A DNA stretch of 64,000 nucleotides from Acidobacteriota bacterium. GTDB taxonomy: Bacteria > Acidobacteriota > Holophagae > Acanthopleuribacterales > Acanthopleuribacteraceae. Position 1 is the first letter of the stretch. Each line of letters begins with the position of its first letter. Shown here in pieces: positions 7,458 through 14,313 of this stretch. The translations under genes were made by a program, and so were the position numbers. Location of the stretch: contig JAGQSC010000003.1 of assembly GCA_020439745.1 (NCBI GenBank), forward strand, positions 1 to 64,000, read 5' to 3'. A model generated the notes under the pieces. It was not told the origin of the DNA. It saw nothing but the letters and a program-made list of their open reading frames with translations, and did no database searches.

Positions 7458-7712
7458 TTAGACCGCCTGACCACGATCCTTTTCTGTTCGACGCGGGTTC
7501 CCTAACTCTGCGATGCGCAAAAGCCCGGACTCGTCATCCGACGGACATAACTCTTTTTCTTTTTTGGCGCATGCGCCACATGAGGGCTCGCCGAGTATTT
7601 CCGCAGCGCCGCCACAGGACCCCTTTAAGCTGATGCCACGCACAATGAAACCTATTGCCATGCCGGCAAAACACAAGCCAAAAATCGTCAATGTGAACAA
7701 AAGCGTCGTCAA
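7458..7712 (-). CDS. nqrM: Na+-NQR maturation factor NqrM (DUF539)
   Basis: A small protein (84 residues from a TTG at 7712) with one N-terminal transmembrane helix (about residues 4-24) followed by a cysteine-rich tail: Cys33 in GSCGG, Cys45 and Cys48 in SCGAC, and Cys56. This is the NqrM architecture, a factor required for assembly of the Nqr iron centre. The start is chosen because GGGAGG lies five bases upstream of the TTG; another TTG at 7727 would add five residues. The gene faces apbE tail to tail with four bases between stop codons, so it is not co-transcribed with nqrA-F. Confidence 0.85.
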   Translation of the reverse strand: MTTLLFTLTIFGLCFAGMAIGFIVRGISLKGSCGGAAEILGEPSCGACAKKEKELCPSDDESGLLRIAELGNPRRTEKDRGQAV

Positions 7713-7770
7713 TGGGGCCTCCCGCAATGCGGTATGATTATTCTAGCAGATCTCAAGGGAAGGTGCTTTT

Positions 7771-8082
7771 ATGAAGGGTGGCGCTTTTGCAGTAATCAAA
7801 GTCATAGAGCCAAAAGCCCAGTATTGGGGGCGGCTTATCGAGATTTCGCCGGCAGGTGTGATTTTTCGGGGTATTGAGGTGACCATGATTGAGCGGTACA
7901 AATACCAAATTGGGAAAGACGATTGCGAGGTCTTCCCCGAAACGCTATTTGTGCCAAGTCGTCGGTTGTTATGCATAGCCTTGGACGAAAATCAGGGTAC
8001 GGTTCCTTCGGTTATAGATTCTATACGCAGCTACACCGGACTTCACGACGACGAAATCATGGGACCCAACACCCATATCTAA
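7771..8082 (+). CDS. Hypothetical protein, 103 residues
   Basis: A small protein with a good RBS (AAGGGAAGG, about nine bases upstream of ATG). It has no signal peptide or membrane helix. The first half looks like a short beta-rich fold (WGRLIEISPAGVIFRGIEV), the second half carries a VFPETLFVPSRR segment. I do not recognise the family. It is divergent from nqrM, with 58 bases between the starts, and its stop overlaps the stop of the NuoM-like gene by four bases. Confidence 0.7.
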   Translation: MKGGAFAVIKVIEPKAQYWGRLIEISPAGVIFRGIEVTMIERYKYQIGKDDCEVFPETLFVPSRRLLCIALDENQGTVPSVIDSIRSYTGLHDDEIMGPNTHI

Positions 8083-8942
8083 ATCTCAAGATCGGGTTCC
8101 TCAGCTCTTTCCGGCCATATCGTCGAACCTACGTCAACAGCCATCAGACGCAAAACAGACCAGACACTCAAACAAAGTCCCAGCCAAGTCACCCACAAAC
8201 TCATCCCCGATTCGGGAATCTGCCAATGGGACATTGGCCACAAGGGTGAGACTGCTATCGCAGCTAGGATCATCAACGGCAGTCCACGCCAGGCACGTCG
8301 GTCGAAGTCTGCAATCTGCATCGTGCGACAAGCGATGCTAATTTCTTGAGCGCCGATTAGTAAGGCGCAAGTGCCCCACATCACCCATGTATGGGTTACG
8401 AGTCCAGCTAGCGCGAACTGAAGCCAACAAAGCCACAGACTGGCCAGAAATCTTCGACTATCACTTTGTGCAACAGCCAGTAAGCCAAAATACATGGCTC
8501 CAAAAAGTAGCCAGCCAAGAGAAAGTTTGAACGGCATCACTTGCGTCGCCAAAAGCATCCCAGCGGCCACGACGAACCAGCTTCCGAAATGGTTGGGAAC
8601 TCGCACAACCCACTCCTGAATATGCACATGGAGGGGGAAAATCGGTAACCAGACCAGAGCCCAAACCCAGGTGGCGATGGACGGCTGTCCCAGAAACCAG
8701 AAGAGCCAGGCTGCGATTAACACCCCAGCCACGCCCCATATCTTGCGGAACCCGTAGATTTGATCTCGATTGCCACCAATCAAAAGAAGGCCAAGTACAA
8801 AAGCGCCGCAGGCAACCAAACCAACCCCCCAAGAGGCCTTGGGCACCCAAGCCAAACCCCACATGCCAACGGTCACAAAGCTTGCCTTCCAACTGCGGGA
8901 TCGCCAAGCCAGCCACAAGCCTGTCAAACCCAGAACGGTCAT
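8079..8942 (-). CDS. Degenerate NuoM-like membrane protein
   Basis: A 287-residue protein made almost wholly of hydrophobic helices. Residues 97-105 (VWLPIFPLH) and 156-164 (AVAQSDSRR) resemble the NuoM segments VKMPMVPLH and AFAQTDIKR in order and spacing, followed by a weak match to the region after the discontinuous helix. The lysine of the first motif, essential for proton transfer in complex I, is Trp98 here. The protein is much shorter than NuoM (about 500 residues). The start was set at 8942 because its ATG overlaps the stop of the upstream gene (ATGA), implying coupled translation. The relation to complex I is my reading of weak similarity. Confidence 0.6.
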   Translation of the reverse strand: MTVLGLTGLWLAWRSRSWKASFVTVGMWGLAWVPKASWGVGLVACGAFVLGLLLIGGNRDQIYGFRKIWGVAGVLIAAWLFWFLGQPSIATWVWALVWLPIFPLHVHIQEWVVRVPNHFGSWFVVAAGMLLATQVMPFKLSLGWLLFGAMYFGLLAVAQSDSRRFLASLWLCWLQFALAGLVTHTWVMWGTCALLIGAQEISIACRTMQIADFDRRAWRGLPLMILAAIAVSPLWPMSHWQIPESGMSLWVTWLGLCLSVWSVLRLMAVDVGSTIWPERAEEPDLEI

Positions 8943-9571
8943 TGCTTGCTCCGTTTCATCGCCCGCGCAACCTGGACGAAAGGTTGCAACAACAAAAACC
9001 ACAAGCCATCCACTACGACAACGTCGCCTCCCCTCCAAAAGGAGGCCGGCAAGGTGCTCAGCGAGGTCACAACGATACGATCAAGCCATGAATGGACCGG
9101 GTTGTCCCCAAGCTCCGCAATCAGAAACCCATTGACAACGACCCAAAACATATCCCGTTCAGGCCACACAAAGAGCCCAACCAGGGATGTCAGCCAAAAC
9201 ACACGCTGACGCGGAGGCCACAATGATGGAAGCCAAAACACAGCCAACCAGGGTGAAATGTCGCTCAACTGGGTCAACCAAAAACCTGTGAACAGGCCAT
9301 CCAATACTGATACTGGACCACAGTTACGCGTTCGCCAACCACAGAAAGGAGGTAATCCGGCCAGCACCCATATACAGACGGACTCGCCAAACCCTGAAGC
9401 CAAGGCCAGCAAGGCGCCTATTTGCATAAAGCCATAGATACGTCCTTCACTGTTTCGGCCAATGATCGCAAGGCGAACCACAATCAGCAGCCACCACCAC
9501 ACCGTCATTTGGTGGGCGGCGAAGACAGCACCAGTGATGAGCCCCAATAAAGCAAGCAGGCGTAGCTTCAT
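8939..9571 (-). CDS. Truncated NuoL-like membrane protein
   Basis: A 210-residue hydrophobic protein. Residues 71-79 (AGLPPFCGW) resemble the AGIPPFAGF helix motif of NuoL/NuoN/Mrp antiporter subunits, and the C-terminus (WRGGDVVVVDGLW, residues 179-191, then a basic tail) resembles the end of NuoL. The N-terminal half of a NuoL (about 600 residues) is absent. A GTG at 9580 is an alternative start. The gene begins only ten bases or so past the terminator of the TPR gene, so it may depend on readthrough. It overlaps the NuoM-like gene by four bases; both frames are intact. Confidence 0.6.
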   Translation of the reverse strand: MKLRLLALLGLITGAVFAAHQMTVWWWLLIVVRLAIIGRNSEGRIYGFMQIGALLALASGFGESVCIWVLAGLPPFCGWRTRNCGPVSVLDGLFTGFWLTQLSDISPWLAVFWLPSLWPPRQRVFWLTSLVGLFVWPERDMFWVVVNGFLIAELGDNPVHSWLDRIVVTSLSTLPASFWRGGDVVVVDGLWFLLLQPFVQVARAMKRSKQ

Positions 9572-9580
9572 AGATGTCAC

Positions 9581-9607
9581 AAAAAAAGGTGGGGACTTGC
9601 CCCACCT
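9581..9607 (-). terminator. Rho-independent terminator after the TPR gene
   Basis: On the minus strand AGGTGGGG (9607-9600) pairs perfectly with CCCCACCT (9594-9587) around a five-base loop, and the 3' side runs into seven T residues (9587-9581). This is a textbook intrinsic terminator for the exbB-to-TPR cluster. Confidence 0.9.
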
Positions 9608-9635: not shown

Positions 9636-11126
9636 TTAGTTGATTCCGTTTTCCTGCAGAGCCTTTTCCATCTGGCCAAACAGATCGGTCGCAGCGGCTC
9701 CGCCACAACGCTTTGCCGAATCACGCAGTGCGGCTAGGTCTTTCAACTCACGTTCCAGCTCTGTCCTGGACTCTTTGATCACCGCTTGCCCTTCCTCAAT
9801 GGCCTTCTGCAATTCGGCCGTTGGCGTGGCAATGTGACGTTCCTTGTTGGCAGCTAGACGTTCCTCGTTGATGGCAATTGTCTTCTGCAGGCTAGTCACG
9901 TTTTCAAGCGCGCGGCGACAGTTCTCCTGTTCCGTGCGTCGGTTGTCCTGCAAGATCTGAAGATTGGCCTGTTTGGCGTCCAACTCGCGTTTGATGACGC
10001 CATTGCCAGGATTGGACTTAACGCCCTGACGCAGGATCTCAATGGCTTTTTCATACAGAGGGATGTCGTGTGCAAAGCAGTCGTTCTTTTGCTGCACGAA
10101 GCTATAGGCAGCGAAGGTATAGACGTTCTGGTTATCGCCAGCACCGTTTGAGATGGCCTTTTTGTAGCTCTCGATGGCCCCATCGAAATCGCCCGATGCC
10201 ATCTGGCAGCTGCCCAGGGAGAAGTACCCGGTACCGTCCTTGGGTTGCATTTTGATGTATTGCTTGAACACGGTTACGGCATCCGCATATTTCTTTTGCC
10301 CCTGCAGTGCTTGGCCCTTTTTGTTGACCATCTTCGCGTCGTTAGGCCAGATCTCCAGGTAACGACTGATGTAGCCCACGGTTCGACCGTAAGCCTGTGC
10401 CTCTTCGCGTTCCGATGCCATTTTTGCCAACTGAAAGGAAACCTCAATCAAAAAACGGTGGGCATCTTCATGACGCTTGTCTTTTTGAAGTACTTGCTCG
10501 AAATCACCGATACACTTTTCCAAGGATGCTTTGGTGCCATGAGTGTTGCCAATCTTGAATTGGCAATAGGCTTTTTGGAACAGGGACTCGACGCTCAGTC
10601 GAGGATCCTTTGAGTTGTATTTTTCGGCCTCAGAAAAGCTAACAATCGCCTTACTGTAATAGCTGATTAGCTTTTCCTTATCCTTCTTTTCTTCAGCCGC
10701 TTTGGCCACCTGCAATTCGCATTGGCCTCGGTTGTAAAGCAAATCAAACTTGCGCGATGAGGGTGCCAAATCGATCAAATCGGTGAACGACTTGATGGCA
10801 CTTAGATAGTCGTTTACGGCCATTTGTGCGCGAGCGAGATCGTACTTCACGACTGGCATCTGGTCGGTGGGAATTTCCAAAGTCAACGCCTCGTTAAAGC
10901 TGGTAATAGACTCTTTGACTTTGTTAAGCGAAAACTGACATTTGCCCTTCAAATAGATTGAAAACCACCAATCTGGATGTGTCTTGACGGCCTCCTCAAA
11001 CAATACAAGGGCTTCCTTGTAGTTGCCTTGCTTGTACAATTCGTGACCGCGTTTCCACTCGTCCTGCGCATTTGCCCGAGGGGCAAAAAAACAAAGCAGA
11101 ACTAGAATTGGCATGATGATTCTCAT
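9636..11126 (-). CDS. Periplasmic TPR-repeat protein
   Basis: A 496-residue protein with a signal peptide (cleavage after PRANA, about residue 20) followed by many tetratricopeptide repeats, beginning with WKRGHELYKQGNYKEALVLF and recurring to about residue 370. A charged, probably coiled-coil segment follows (residues 390-480, rich in Glu, Lys and Arg). It is the last gene of the ExbB/ExbD/TonB cluster, so a role in a TonB-driven envelope assembly is plausible. No enzymatic domain is seen. Similar TPR proteins accompany gliding and secretion motors, but that is analogy only. Confidence 0.85.
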   Translation of the reverse strand: MRIIMPILVLLCFFAPRANAQDEWKRGHELYKQGNYKEALVLFEEAVKTHPDWWFSIYLKGKCQFSLNKVKESITSFNEALTLEIPTDQMPVVKYDLARAQMAVNDYLSAIKSFTDLIDLAPSSRKFDLLYNRGQCELQVAKAAEEKKDKEKLISYYSKAIVSFSEAEKYNSKDPRLSVESLFQKAYCQFKIGNTHGTKASLEKCIGDFEQVLQKDKRHEDAHRFLIEVSFQLAKMASEREEAQAYGRTVGYISRYLEIWPNDAKMVNKKGQALQGQKKYADAVTVFKQYIKMQPKDGTGYFSLGSCQMASGDFDGAIESYKKAISNGAGDNQNVYTFAAYSFVQQKNDCFAHDIPLYEKAIEILRQGVKSNPGNGVIKRELDAKQANLQILQDNRRTEQENCRRALENVTSLQKTIAINEERLAANKERHIATPTAELQKAIEEGQAVIKESRTELERELKDLAALRDSAKRCGGAAATDLFGQMEKALQENGIN

Positions 11127-11150
11127 GGGAAACTCCCTCTTACAAACCCT

Positions 11151-12008
11151 TTAGGGTTCCTTAATTATTTTTTTCAATTCAACAGTAAGGTCTTTGGCAA
11201 CTTGGGCTTCTTCCAACAATTGCGCGGCCTTGACAATCTGAGACGCCGTTTCGATGACAGCCTCAATGCCTTTGCCCTCGTTTACTTCTTTGACACCCTT
11301 CGCGCAGTGTCGCTGAACGACGGGGTGTGCCAGCTCACTGACAGCAGCTTTAGCAGCTCGGTACACTTTTTCGACCTTGGCCAGTAACCATTCTTTTTCT
11401 TCTTCGGGGCTCTTTTTCCCGGGCGCAACCTTGGGCTTGGTTTTCGCCTCCAAGGGGTTTGGGTCGGCCTTTGCCTTCGGTGTCTCTCGCAGTTTCACCA
11501 AATCTGCGGACACCAATCCGTAAATCAGTTTTGCCACGTCCACAGGAATGAGACCTACCTGTTTGGCGATCGACTTGATGCTATTGATGCCATTGATCTT
11601 AGAAAGCACGTGCCATTCCTGAGTATTGAAACTCACCTTTTTGGTTCCCAAACTCTCCAGTTCGGGGATCAGTCCAAAAGATGGAATCTTCTTACTCAGA
11701 ACACGCCATTCATCGAACTTGCGAGCCACTTCCATCAATATGAAGGTGTTCTTTTTGGTGATCGACTCGCTATTAGACGCGACACCCTCTTCAAACACGA
11801 AGCTTCCCGAATCCCAAATAGCAAGTGAATAGATGGCGTCTTCGCCTTTCAGATCATCGCTCTCAGCATGAACGATCTGTCCATCGCGAAGATAGATAAA
11901 GCCGGTATCTTCATCACGCTTAAGATGAAAGCGCCCCGTTTTGGTAGAGACGCTCATCAACTGAATAATGTCCGGCAGTTTGACGTCGTTTAGTGAACCT
12001 TGAAACAT
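11151..12008 (-). CDS. PATAN/DUF4388 domain protein
   Basis: A 285-residue protein whose first 100 residues (MFQGSLNDVKLPDIIQLMS, then FIYLRDGQIVHAESD and GEDAIYSLAIWDSGSFVFE) match the DUF4388/PATAN domain found in cyanobacterial PatA and in many acidobacterial and myxobacterial regulators. A middle winged-helix-like part (about 115-170, WHVLSKINGINSIKSIAKQ) follows, then a Pro/Lys-rich linker and a helical C-terminus. PATAN domains are thought to act in protein-protein signalling. It sits between tonB and the TPR gene and has no signal peptide, so it should be cytoplasmic. Confidence 0.85.
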   Translation of the reverse strand: MFQGSLNDVKLPDIIQLMSVSTKTGRFHLKRDEDTGFIYLRDGQIVHAESDDLKGEDAIYSLAIWDSGSFVFEEGVASNSESITKKNTFILMEVARKFDEWRVLSKKIPSFGLIPELESLGTKKVSFNTQEWHVLSKINGINSIKSIAKQVGLIPVDVAKLIYGLVSADLVKLRETPKAKADPNPLEAKTKPKVAPGKKSPEEEKEWLLAKVEKVYRAAKAAVSELAHPVVQRHCAKGVKEVNEGKGIEAVIETASQIVKAAQLLEEAQVAKDLTVELKKIIKEP

Positions 12009-12045
12009 GTCGGCTTAACTCGGGTAAAGGATGCTCAAAATCGGC

Positions 12046-12070
12046 CATCCTGCAGGGTTACTGCAGGATG
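12046..12070 (-). terminator. Hairpin spanning the tonB stop codon
   Basis: A perfect ten-base inverted repeat (catcctgcag / ctgcaggatg) with a five-base loop covers the last codons and stop of tonB. On the minus strand the 3' side lacks an immediate T run (GCCGATTTTG follows), so it is a weak terminator or an mRNA-stabilising or attenuating hairpin between tonB and the PATAN gene. Confidence 0.4.
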
Positions 12071-12771
12071 AAGTCGATTTTCAGGGTCATTCGCACGTCG
12101 GCGGGCTTGCCATTCACCTTACCGGGCAGGAACTTCCACTGCTTCAGCGCGGTAATAGCTTCTTCTTCAAAGCCAAACTTGCCTTTTCCTAGTCCACGCA
12201 AAACTTTGACGTCGTCCACGGCACCGTCTTTGCGCAAAATGGCTTCCAAAATCACATAGCCTTGTAGCTTAATCTTGGCGGCGCGATCGGGATAGTTAGG
12301 CTTCACTTTTTGAGTGAACACGGGAGGCTCAACACCCACCTGACCCACTCGAGCGATGGTGTCACCTTGAGGTTCAGGCGGGCCATCTGGAATTCCAATC
12401 TCCCAATCGTCTGTGGGCAATACTTCCGGCTCTGGCGGTGGGTCTGGTTCGACAATCGGTTCCGGTTCATCGGGTGTCATGTCTGGCATGGGCACCTTCA
12501 TCGCCTTTTTCTCTTGAGTTTGAACCTTCTCCACGGGTTTTTCCGGAGGTGGCTTCAGCACTTTGCGTTTCTGTGGCTTGTTCTCTTGCGTCGTGACATT
12601 AAACACCTTGTCGCCAAATGAAGGCAGAGGCGTCCAGATCAGAAACAAGACAATCAGGAGTGAGGCCAGCAAGCCCATCTTGGCATAAGCGCCTTCCTCC
12701 GCATCCTCGAAGGCAATGGCCATTACGGCCGAATGGTCTTTGCCGTCGTCGAATTTGAGATCAATGCTCAT
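12058..12771 (-). CDS. tonB: TonB-family energy transducer
   Basis: A 237-residue protein with an N-terminal cytoplasmic stretch, one membrane helix (about residues 32-50), a Pro/Glu/Lys-rich periplasm-spanning linker (about 60-150) and a C-terminal TonB domain (about 150-237, with YPDRAAKIKLQGYVILEAIL and a WKFLPGKVNGKPAD segment). It would pass proton-motive energy from the adjacent ExbB/ExbD proteins to outer-membrane or envelope partners. The roughly 30-residue cytoplasmic extension before the helix is longer than in E. coli TonB. Confidence 0.92.
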   Translation of the reverse strand: MSIDLKFDDGKDHSAVMAIAFEDAEEGAYAKMGLLASLLIVLFLIWTPLPSFGDKVFNVTTQENKPQKRKVLKPPPEKPVEKVQTQEKKAMKVPMPDMTPDEPEPIVEPDPPPEPEVLPTDDWEIGIPDGPPEPQGDTIARVGQVGVEPPVFTQKVKPNYPDRAAKIKLQGYVILEAILRKDGAVDDVKVLRGLGKGKFGFEEEAITALKQWKFLPGKVNGKPADVRMTLKIDFILQ

Positions 12772-12782
12772 GACAACACTCC

Positions 12783-13238
12783 TTACTGAACGCCGAAGCG
12801 CGCATAACGCTCGGCCTCTTCTTTGGACGGGATTGTGATTGCCAATTCGGTTTCCAACTCTTTGCCTACACGCTTCAGTTGATTGAACACGGCCACCATA
12901 TCGCCGTATTTTGCTTCGCGGTTGGTGTGCAAAATGATGGGCTTTTTGGCGTTCTGTTGCACCTTGCCGAAGACGTATTCGTGAACGGTTTCCACATCGT
13001 CAATGGAGTAGGGTTTCTGATCCATCACAAACTGCCCACTGGGGTAGATTTGAATGTAAATCGCCTCTTCATTGTCGATTTGCTCGTCTGGAATGTCTTC
13101 TTTCGGCGGCAAAAGGTGTTCCATACCCTTGTTGGCCGAAAACACGGTAGTCAACATGAAAAACACAATCAGCAGGAAGGCGATATCCGCCATCGATGCG
13201 GTAGGAATTTCAGGTTCTTCGACTTGAGGTCGTTTCAT
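12783..13238 (-). CDS. exbD: ExbD/TolR-family motor protein (second copy)
   Basis: A 151-residue protein with a short cytoplasmic head, one membrane helix (about residues 16-36, MADIAFLLIVFFMLTTVF) holding the Asp essential for proton use, and a periplasmic domain. Together with ExbB it forms the ion-driven motor that energises TonB. It lies 11 bases before tonB and 13 after the first exbD. Two different ExbD proteins in one cluster suggest a mixed ExbD complex, as seen in some TonB and gliding systems. Confidence 0.92.
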   Translation of the reverse strand: MKRPQVEEPEIPTASMADIAFLLIVFFMLTTVFSANKGMEHLLPPKEDIPDEQIDNEEAIYIQIYPSGQFVMDQKPYSIDDVETVHEYVFGKVQQNAKKPIILHTNREAKYGDMVAVFNQLKRVGKELETELAITIPSKEEAERYARFGVQ

Positions 13239-13251
13239 GTCCGCTCCCGTC

Positions 13252-13671
13252 TCACTTTTCTTGCTCGGTCAGGAACTTGAGGTTCGTGACACGTGCGTTG
13301 CGCAGATGTTCAAGGACATCATCAATCTTTCCGTAGTCAGCCTCGGCATCGGCCTTGATGACAACGGGTTGATTGGGGTTCTTGTTCATCCAGGATGCCG
13401 CCAGGACACCAATATCCTCGAGGTTGACCAGCTTGCTGTCTTCAACCCCATCGGAAGCCTTCAACACGCCACTCTTTTGGATCACCACAAAGGCGGAACC
13501 CTTCAGGACTTCGGTACGTGTGACCTCGGAACTTCGAGGTAGTGCAAGGGACGTCTTGTCCACCTGAAATACCGTCGAGATCATAAAGAACACGATCAGC
13601 AGAAAGGCGATATCCGCCATTGAGGCAGTGGGAATATTCGCTGGGAGCTCCCGGGTTTTCGTGATTTTCAT
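13252..13671 (-). CDS. exbD: ExbD/TolR-family motor protein (first copy)
   Basis: A 139-residue protein with the same layout as its neighbour: helix MADIAFLLIVFFMISTVF at about residues 17-34 with the conserved Asp, then a periplasmic domain ending in LEHLRNARVTNLKFLTEQ. The two copies share their membrane segment almost exactly but diverge in the periplasmic part, so they are old paralogues, not a recent duplication. Confidence 0.92.
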   Translation of the reverse strand: MKITKTRELPANIPTASMADIAFLLIVFFMISTVFQVDKTSLALPRSSEVTRTEVLKGSAFVVIQKSGVLKASDGVEDSKLVNLEDIGVLAASWMNKNPNQPVVIKADAEADYGKIDDVLEHLRNARVTNLKFLTEQEK

Positions 13672-13692
13672 GGTACCTGCCTTGTTGGCAGC

Positions 13693-14313
13693 TTAAATGC
13701 TGCGTTCCATTTGCGAGAAGGATTCCATCAGAACGGCTGAGGCCGACTCAATCTCGCGGATGAAGTTGTTAACACGGGTGGTGAAGTAGCTGTACGCCAA
13801 CAAGGTGGGTACGGCAACGATCAAACCACCGGCAGTGGTAATCAATGCCTGAGAGATACCAGCGGCCACAGCACCCGGATCATTCAATTGAGACAAGGCG
13901 TTAAACGACTCGATCATACCGGTAACCGTTCCGAGGAAGCCCAGGATCGGAGCCAGGTTGGAAATGGTCGAAAGCACGGGAAGTCCGCGTTCCAGACGAG
14001 CGATCTCGTGCATGGCAGCGTTCTCCATGGTTTTTTCGATTTCTTCCTTGGGGTCACCAAATTTCATCAAACCCGTTTTCAAAATAGAAGCGATGGGACC
14101 TTTGAATTTTTCACAGATCTGAACCGCTTCTTTTACGTTTTTGTTCTTCAGCGCGGCACGAATCTTGGTGAGAAACTCCGCGGTATTGATTTTGGCTTTA
14201 GCCAACGCTACATATCGTTCAACAGTGTAAGTCAGACCAATAAGCAGCAACACGACGAGCGGCACCATGATGAAAAGGCCACCCTCGATGATCTTGGTAA
14301 GAATATAGCCCAC
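13693..14313 (-). CDS. exbB: ExbB/TolQ/MotA-family proton channel
   Basis: A 206-residue protein with three membrane helices: one near the N-terminus and two in the conserved C-terminal part (SNLAPILGFLGTVTGMIESF and the AGGLIVAVPTLLAYSYF region). It forms the ion-conducting ring of the motor with ExbD. It starts with GTG behind GGAGG and is the first gene of the exbB-exbD-exbD-tonB-PATAN-TPR cluster. Confidence 0.93.
   Translation of the reverse strand: MGYILTKIIEGGLFIMVPLVVLLLIGLTYTVERYVALAKAKINTAEFLTKIRAALKNKNVKEAVQICEKFKGPIASILKTGLMKFGDPKEEIEKTMENAAMHEIARLERGLPVLSTISNLAPILGFLGTVTGMIESFNALSQLNDPGAVAAGISQALITTAGGLIVAVPTLLAYSYFTTRVNNFIREIESASAVLMESFSQMERSI

Follow-up and report, generated by a model that had tools for sequence, protein, structure and literature searches.

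Two short, overlapping membrane genes beside an Nqr operon carry stretches reminiscent of the antiporter-like subunits of complex I, which raises the question of whether they descend from that family and, if so, what such reduced proteins might do. To our knowledge, antiporter-like subunits are otherwise long and well conserved and are found within large ion-pumping complexes. The two genes are located in a 64,000-nucleotide stretch (the window) of an Acidobacteriota genome of 5.1 Mb. Gene A (8939..9571, minus strand, 633 bp) is an open frame of 210 amino acids with about 5–7 transmembrane helices (TMH) predicted by hydropathy, a homologue in a congener and no assignable family. Gene B (8079..8942, minus strand, 864 bp) encodes 287 amino acids with about 9–12 predicted TMH. 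The TGA of A and the ATG of B overlap as ATGA (8939..8942, minus strand), as they do in the congener. Both open reading frames, their coordinates, the overlap, the motifs quoted in the preliminary description, Trp98 of B and the neighbouring Nqr operon (nqrA-F-apbE adjoins the pair) were all found in the sequence. Conservation was examined in seven genomes of the family Acanthopleuribacteraceae (G000–G006), of which G000 is the window genome and G001, the same record as JAJCXM010000001.1, a MAG, is the congener.

Family assignment of genes B and A

Single-sequence searches of A and B in Pfam, NCBIfam and PDB gave no match. In Pfam neither protein had a match even at E 10, the gathering score of the Proton_antipo_M superfamily was not reached, and no Pfam match to this superfamily was found for the congener copies. 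The 14 TMH and approximately 500 amino acids of superfamily members are found in neither A nor B. A profile of B, composed of two rows (window and congener), was compared by hhalign with NuoM and NuoL alignments built in this analysis, and aligned with them over the TM7–TM11 core with E values of 2.5e-7 (NuoM) and 2.3e-7 (NuoL), against E 0.03 or worse for the controls (reversed alignments, and the unrelated NqrB/D/E, AcrB and ExbB). With a pooled antiporter profile, B scored 59, while 100 column shuffles had a mean of 15, a standard deviation of 2.3 and a maximum of 23. Of 396 Acidobacteriota genomes searched with the two-row profile, 138 yielded matches to ORFs of the antiporter family (best per-genome E 3e-6), nearly always within profile columns ~100–260, and the best of these matches, on inspection, were NuoL/NuoM. 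Most of the signal comes from the congener copy, which by itself scored 22.6 bits against NuoL, whereas its shuffles did not exceed 4.2. Window B by itself aligned at the same place with about 3 bits, below significance, so that its family is assigned through its syntenic homology to congener B. AlphaFold2 models built from two rows had mean pLDDT values of only 48 and 45, and a Foldseek search with these poor models returned a result without meaning. Taken together, the profile comparisons support the descent of gene B, as a remote relative, from the NuoL/M antiporter-like family.

The aligned TM7–TM11 region includes three motifs, P.FPLH, AxxQxDxRR and QI.DF. In the hhalign alignment, the first, VWLPIFPLH (residues 97–105; 8628..8654, minus strand), pairs with IKVPMFPFH in TM7 of NuoM; the second, AVAQSDSRR (residues 156–164; 8451..8477, minus strand), corresponds to the A.xQxDxKR loop conserved in NuoL/M; and the third, QIADF (residues 209–213; 8304..8318, minus strand), is equivalent to the R.HTR.I.DFGGL motif of NuoM.

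The preliminary description had recognised pieces of antiporter subunits in both proteins, and a profile search bears this out for B and not for A. The best score of A against antiporter profiles was 19.5, with a shuffle maximum of 21.1, and hmmsearch gave 4.1 bits, with a shuffle maximum of 4.9; neither is above chance, and sub-segments of A were borderline at best, uncorrected for many comparisons. The stretch AGLPPFCGW (residues 71–79; 9335..9361, minus strand) resembles TM7 and TM12 loops alike, without significance: several profiles place its LPPF.GW at the TM7 loop, others at that of TM12. The stretch of A best conserved with the congener, WRGGDVVVVDGLWFLLLQPF (residues 179–198; 8978..9037, minus strand), is by eye faintly similar to the C-terminal VDG motif of NuoL, and the tail, which had been called NuoL-like, gave no signal in the profile comparison. 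With one motif fitting two loops, a tail without signal and scores within those of shuffles, the reading of gene A as a NuoL derivative is not sustained. Since no test of A stood clearly above chance, we treat it as an unassigned membrane protein of about 5–7 helices. The chances are roughly even that only B is of antiporter descent and that A is an unrelated small membrane protein of the same cassette, as the lack of any A profile clearly above its shuffles suggests; the best local alignments of A (in the NuoN, MrpD-like mD2 and pooled profiles) coincide with the TM7 loop, which hints weakly at a relationship. This alternative concerns A only and is compatible with the reading of the pair that we favour below. 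Three other candidates were discarded: weak matches of the A profile in other Acidobacteriota proved on inspection to be other protein families; a homology of A to the front half of B was not significant; and the idea that A and B together (497 amino acids) make up one split subunit of ~500 amino acids was set aside as the main reading, as A has too many helices for the missing N-terminus and no match there.

Channel residues of gene B and comparison with known complexes

Gene B had been described as far too short, with Trp98 in place of the key lysine of the NuoM motif; both statements are confirmed, and further channel residues are gone too. The protein has 287 amino acids versus ~500–600 in NuoL/NuoM and is devoid of their first ~3 helices, with 96 residues before the TM7 motif versus about 230 in NuoM. 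In the hhalign alignment, the TM7 position, a lysine in 49 of 53 reference antiporter proteins, is occupied by Trp98 in window B (codon 8649-8651, minus strand) and by leucine in the congener. The TM8 lysine of NuoM aligns with Ala132 (8547..8549, minus strand) in window B and with valine in the congener copy. The stretch that holds the TM10 histidine is absent. B also lacks the TM5 glutamate, the partner of the TM7 lysine: residues 1–96 of window B contain a single acidic residue, located in a loop, and none in the predicted helices before the TM7 motif, these helices being matched by position only. In the region of the TM12 Glu/Lys, the alignment of B to antiporter subunits is not significant. 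Within the predicted helices of window B, the only charges are H105 and E200. Mutation of the TM7 lysine in E. coli NuoL, NuoM or NuoN leads to loss of complex I function (PMC3046159), and isolated modules conduct protons along a Lys-His-Lys/Glu axis (PMC11496545). Since B has lost the TM7 lysine, the TM8 lysine and the TM10 histidine, it appears unlikely to pump protons by the classical mechanism, and the loss of the N-terminal helices and proton-path residues makes a non-pumping membrane scaffold or partner its most likely role.

The window genome differs from the usual setting of NuoL/NuoM also in having no complex I: NuoD (49 kDa) was found in none of the seven family genomes, all of which have NqrB/RnfD-type genes. 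Mrp-type antiporter proteins occur in six of the seven. In the window genome, Proton_antipo_M proteins are confined to three members of an Mrp/Mbh-type cluster on another contig (G000:C2, L027:10433-17955), together with MnhE, MnhG, a fused MbhE-MnhB and an MrpC/NuoK-like protein; in the third of them an asparagine replaces the TM7 lysine. These subunits belong to the same superfamily as B, but are full-length (157–208 bits in Pfam) and unlinked to the locus of the pair, and by hhalign B is closer to NuoL/M than to them. No MrpB/C/E/F/G partners were found at the locus, where the neighbours are TPR, DUF4388, TonB, ExbB/D, orf103 and Nqr. With complex I lacking in the genome and Proton_antipo_M proteins present only in a cluster on another contig, the pair does not belong to a local complex I.

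Two further systems invite comparison. DabB of the DabAB inorganic-carbon transporters is a Proton_antipo_M protein, whereas B has no Pfam match and a DabA-like gene is absent among the neighbours of the pair. Metazoan ND2 works inside complex I and retains charged channel residues. It is mentioned as devoid of three N-terminal helices (PMC3046159), and B is likewise a naturally shortened antiporter-like subunit whose first helices are gone, but it has neither the complex I setting nor the charged channel residues.

Conservation of the pair and its possible roles

Genes A and B occur together in only two of the seven family genomes, those of the window and of its congener, and pattern scans over 85k species retrieved nothing beyond this already known congener. 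In three other family genomes, the TPR gene and orf103 directly adjoin, with the pair absent from the interval, and two further genomes also have no pair; its absence from these five implies a gain in the genus or repeated loss elsewhere. Weak similarity to A was observed in G003 and G006, but no membrane ORF of this kind is present at the best-scoring place in G003. The two species of the genus share one locus order (nqrA-F, apbE, nqrM, orf103, B, A, TPR, DUF4388, tonB, exbD, exbD, exbB, RND pumps), with TPR through the RND pumps on the minus strand. The frames of A and B are unbroken in the congener, where the ATGA overlap is kept if B starts at the second ATG. The preliminary description had proposed a check of the pair and its neighbours in related genomes, and in this one congener the pair, its overlap and the synteny are retained.

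Window and congener proteins are 35% (A) and 28% (B; blastp E 8e-13) identical, while the neighbouring genes share 48–96%. Codon alignments give identities at positions 1/2/3 of 0.43/0.58/0.31 (A) and 0.39/0.55/0.32 (B). Third positions are thus near saturation and second positions, which determine hydrophobic character, are constrained, supporting real, selected and fast-evolving membrane proteins. Residues identical in both species are, in B, H105, H107, Q109, E110, R114, Q159, D161, R163 and R164 and, in A, D91, D183 and D188. The pair is therefore composed of lineage-specific, maintained genes in one Acidobacteriota genus, and the earlier argument for selection and against simple decay holds for two diverged species with intact frames.

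We consider it somewhat probable that A and B form a genus-specific two-gene membrane cassette in which B is a reduced antiporter-like subunit, a non-pumping scaffold or partner and not an H+ antiporter. The ATGA overlap would couple the translation of the two genes, and A and B would bind each other. B keeps the TM7–TM11 core of NuoL/NuoM, having lost its N-terminal helices and the ionisable residues of the proton path, and, judging from its residues, would not conduct protons; it may serve as a scaffold or partner, either for A or on the periphery of some other complex of antiporter type, for example the Mrp/Mbh-type cluster of the cell. Against this explanation stand the presence of the pair in only two genomes, the poor structure models and the score of window B by itself, which is below significance; moreover, a protein without the canonical lysines could still transport another substrate.

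Two alternatives seem about equally improbable. The genes could be remnants near loss, an old NuoL/NuoM-type pair now functionless and drifting, as might be expected from their much faster divergence than all neighbours, the lost functional residues, the lack of a Shine-Dalgarno sequence before window A and the presence of a terminator upstream; drift is, however, difficult to reconcile with frames of 633 and 864 bp that stay open in both species despite near-saturated third positions, with the better conserved second codon positions and with the retained overlap. Alternatively, the pair could be an active transporter or channel that operates through non-canonical residues, for instance for a cation, CO2/bicarbonate or a small solute. 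The antiporter core retained in B and the polar and charged residues of A and B that are identical in both species are consistent with such a function, but hardly any charge lies within the predicted helices of window B, and a recognisable soluble partner gene is absent at the locus.

Genomic surroundings and meaning of the pair

Between the TPR gene and A, a strong hairpin followed by a T-run forms an intrinsic terminator (9587..9607, minus strand). The congener has an equivalent terminator at this place, and three genomes that lack the pair have one immediately behind TPR; its conservation in five genomes indicates that the TonB operon ends before A. The strand of A showed no sigma-70-like site upstream of the gene in the window, and window A is not preceded by a Shine-Dalgarno sequence. 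Expression of A and B is likely to come from low-level read-through or an unrecognised promoter, and the pair is probably low-expressed.

The ExbB-ExbD-ExbD-TonB-DUF4388-TPR operon (window 9636-14313) is conserved in the whole family, and its DUF4388 and TPR proteins appear to be constant associates of the TonB motor. On the other side of the pair, orf103 (window 7771-8082) encodes a protein of ~100 amino acids without a Pfam match and converges with B at the 3′ ends; its position opposite the TPR gene of that operon is kept in five of the seven family genomes, the exceptions being G002 and G004. The Nqr operon and an NqrM-like maturation gene (window 7458-7727), whose PF04400 match is below cut-off only, are on opposite strands. 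We found no literature on truncated antiporter-like subunits beside Nqr.

The least probable of the alternatives, also put forward in the preliminary description, is that the pair is an accessory of the adjoining Nqr complex or of the ExbB-ExbD-TonB motor. In its favour, the genes are adjacent in both congeneric species, but the Nqr operon is convergent on the opposite strand, and sister genera have NqrB-type genes but not the pair, these genes being located over 100 kb away from the TPR gene in G003, G005 and G006. The terminator conserved in five genomes closes the TonB operon before A, and the TonB/ExbBD/TPR operon occurs without the pair in five relatives, so that the link appears to be one of proximity only.

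The claim for a cassette with a non-pumping, antiporter-derived B has to be modest, as the evidence comes from two genomes. Tentatively, the pair may represent a two-protein antiporter-fold module that gave up proton pumping and became a stand-alone scaffold or a new transporter in a lineage without complex I. If so, a maintained and heavily cut-down copy without the pumping residues would show that the antiporter fold can be reused for something else, and it would serve as an experiment of nature on the parts of the module that count when no protons flow.
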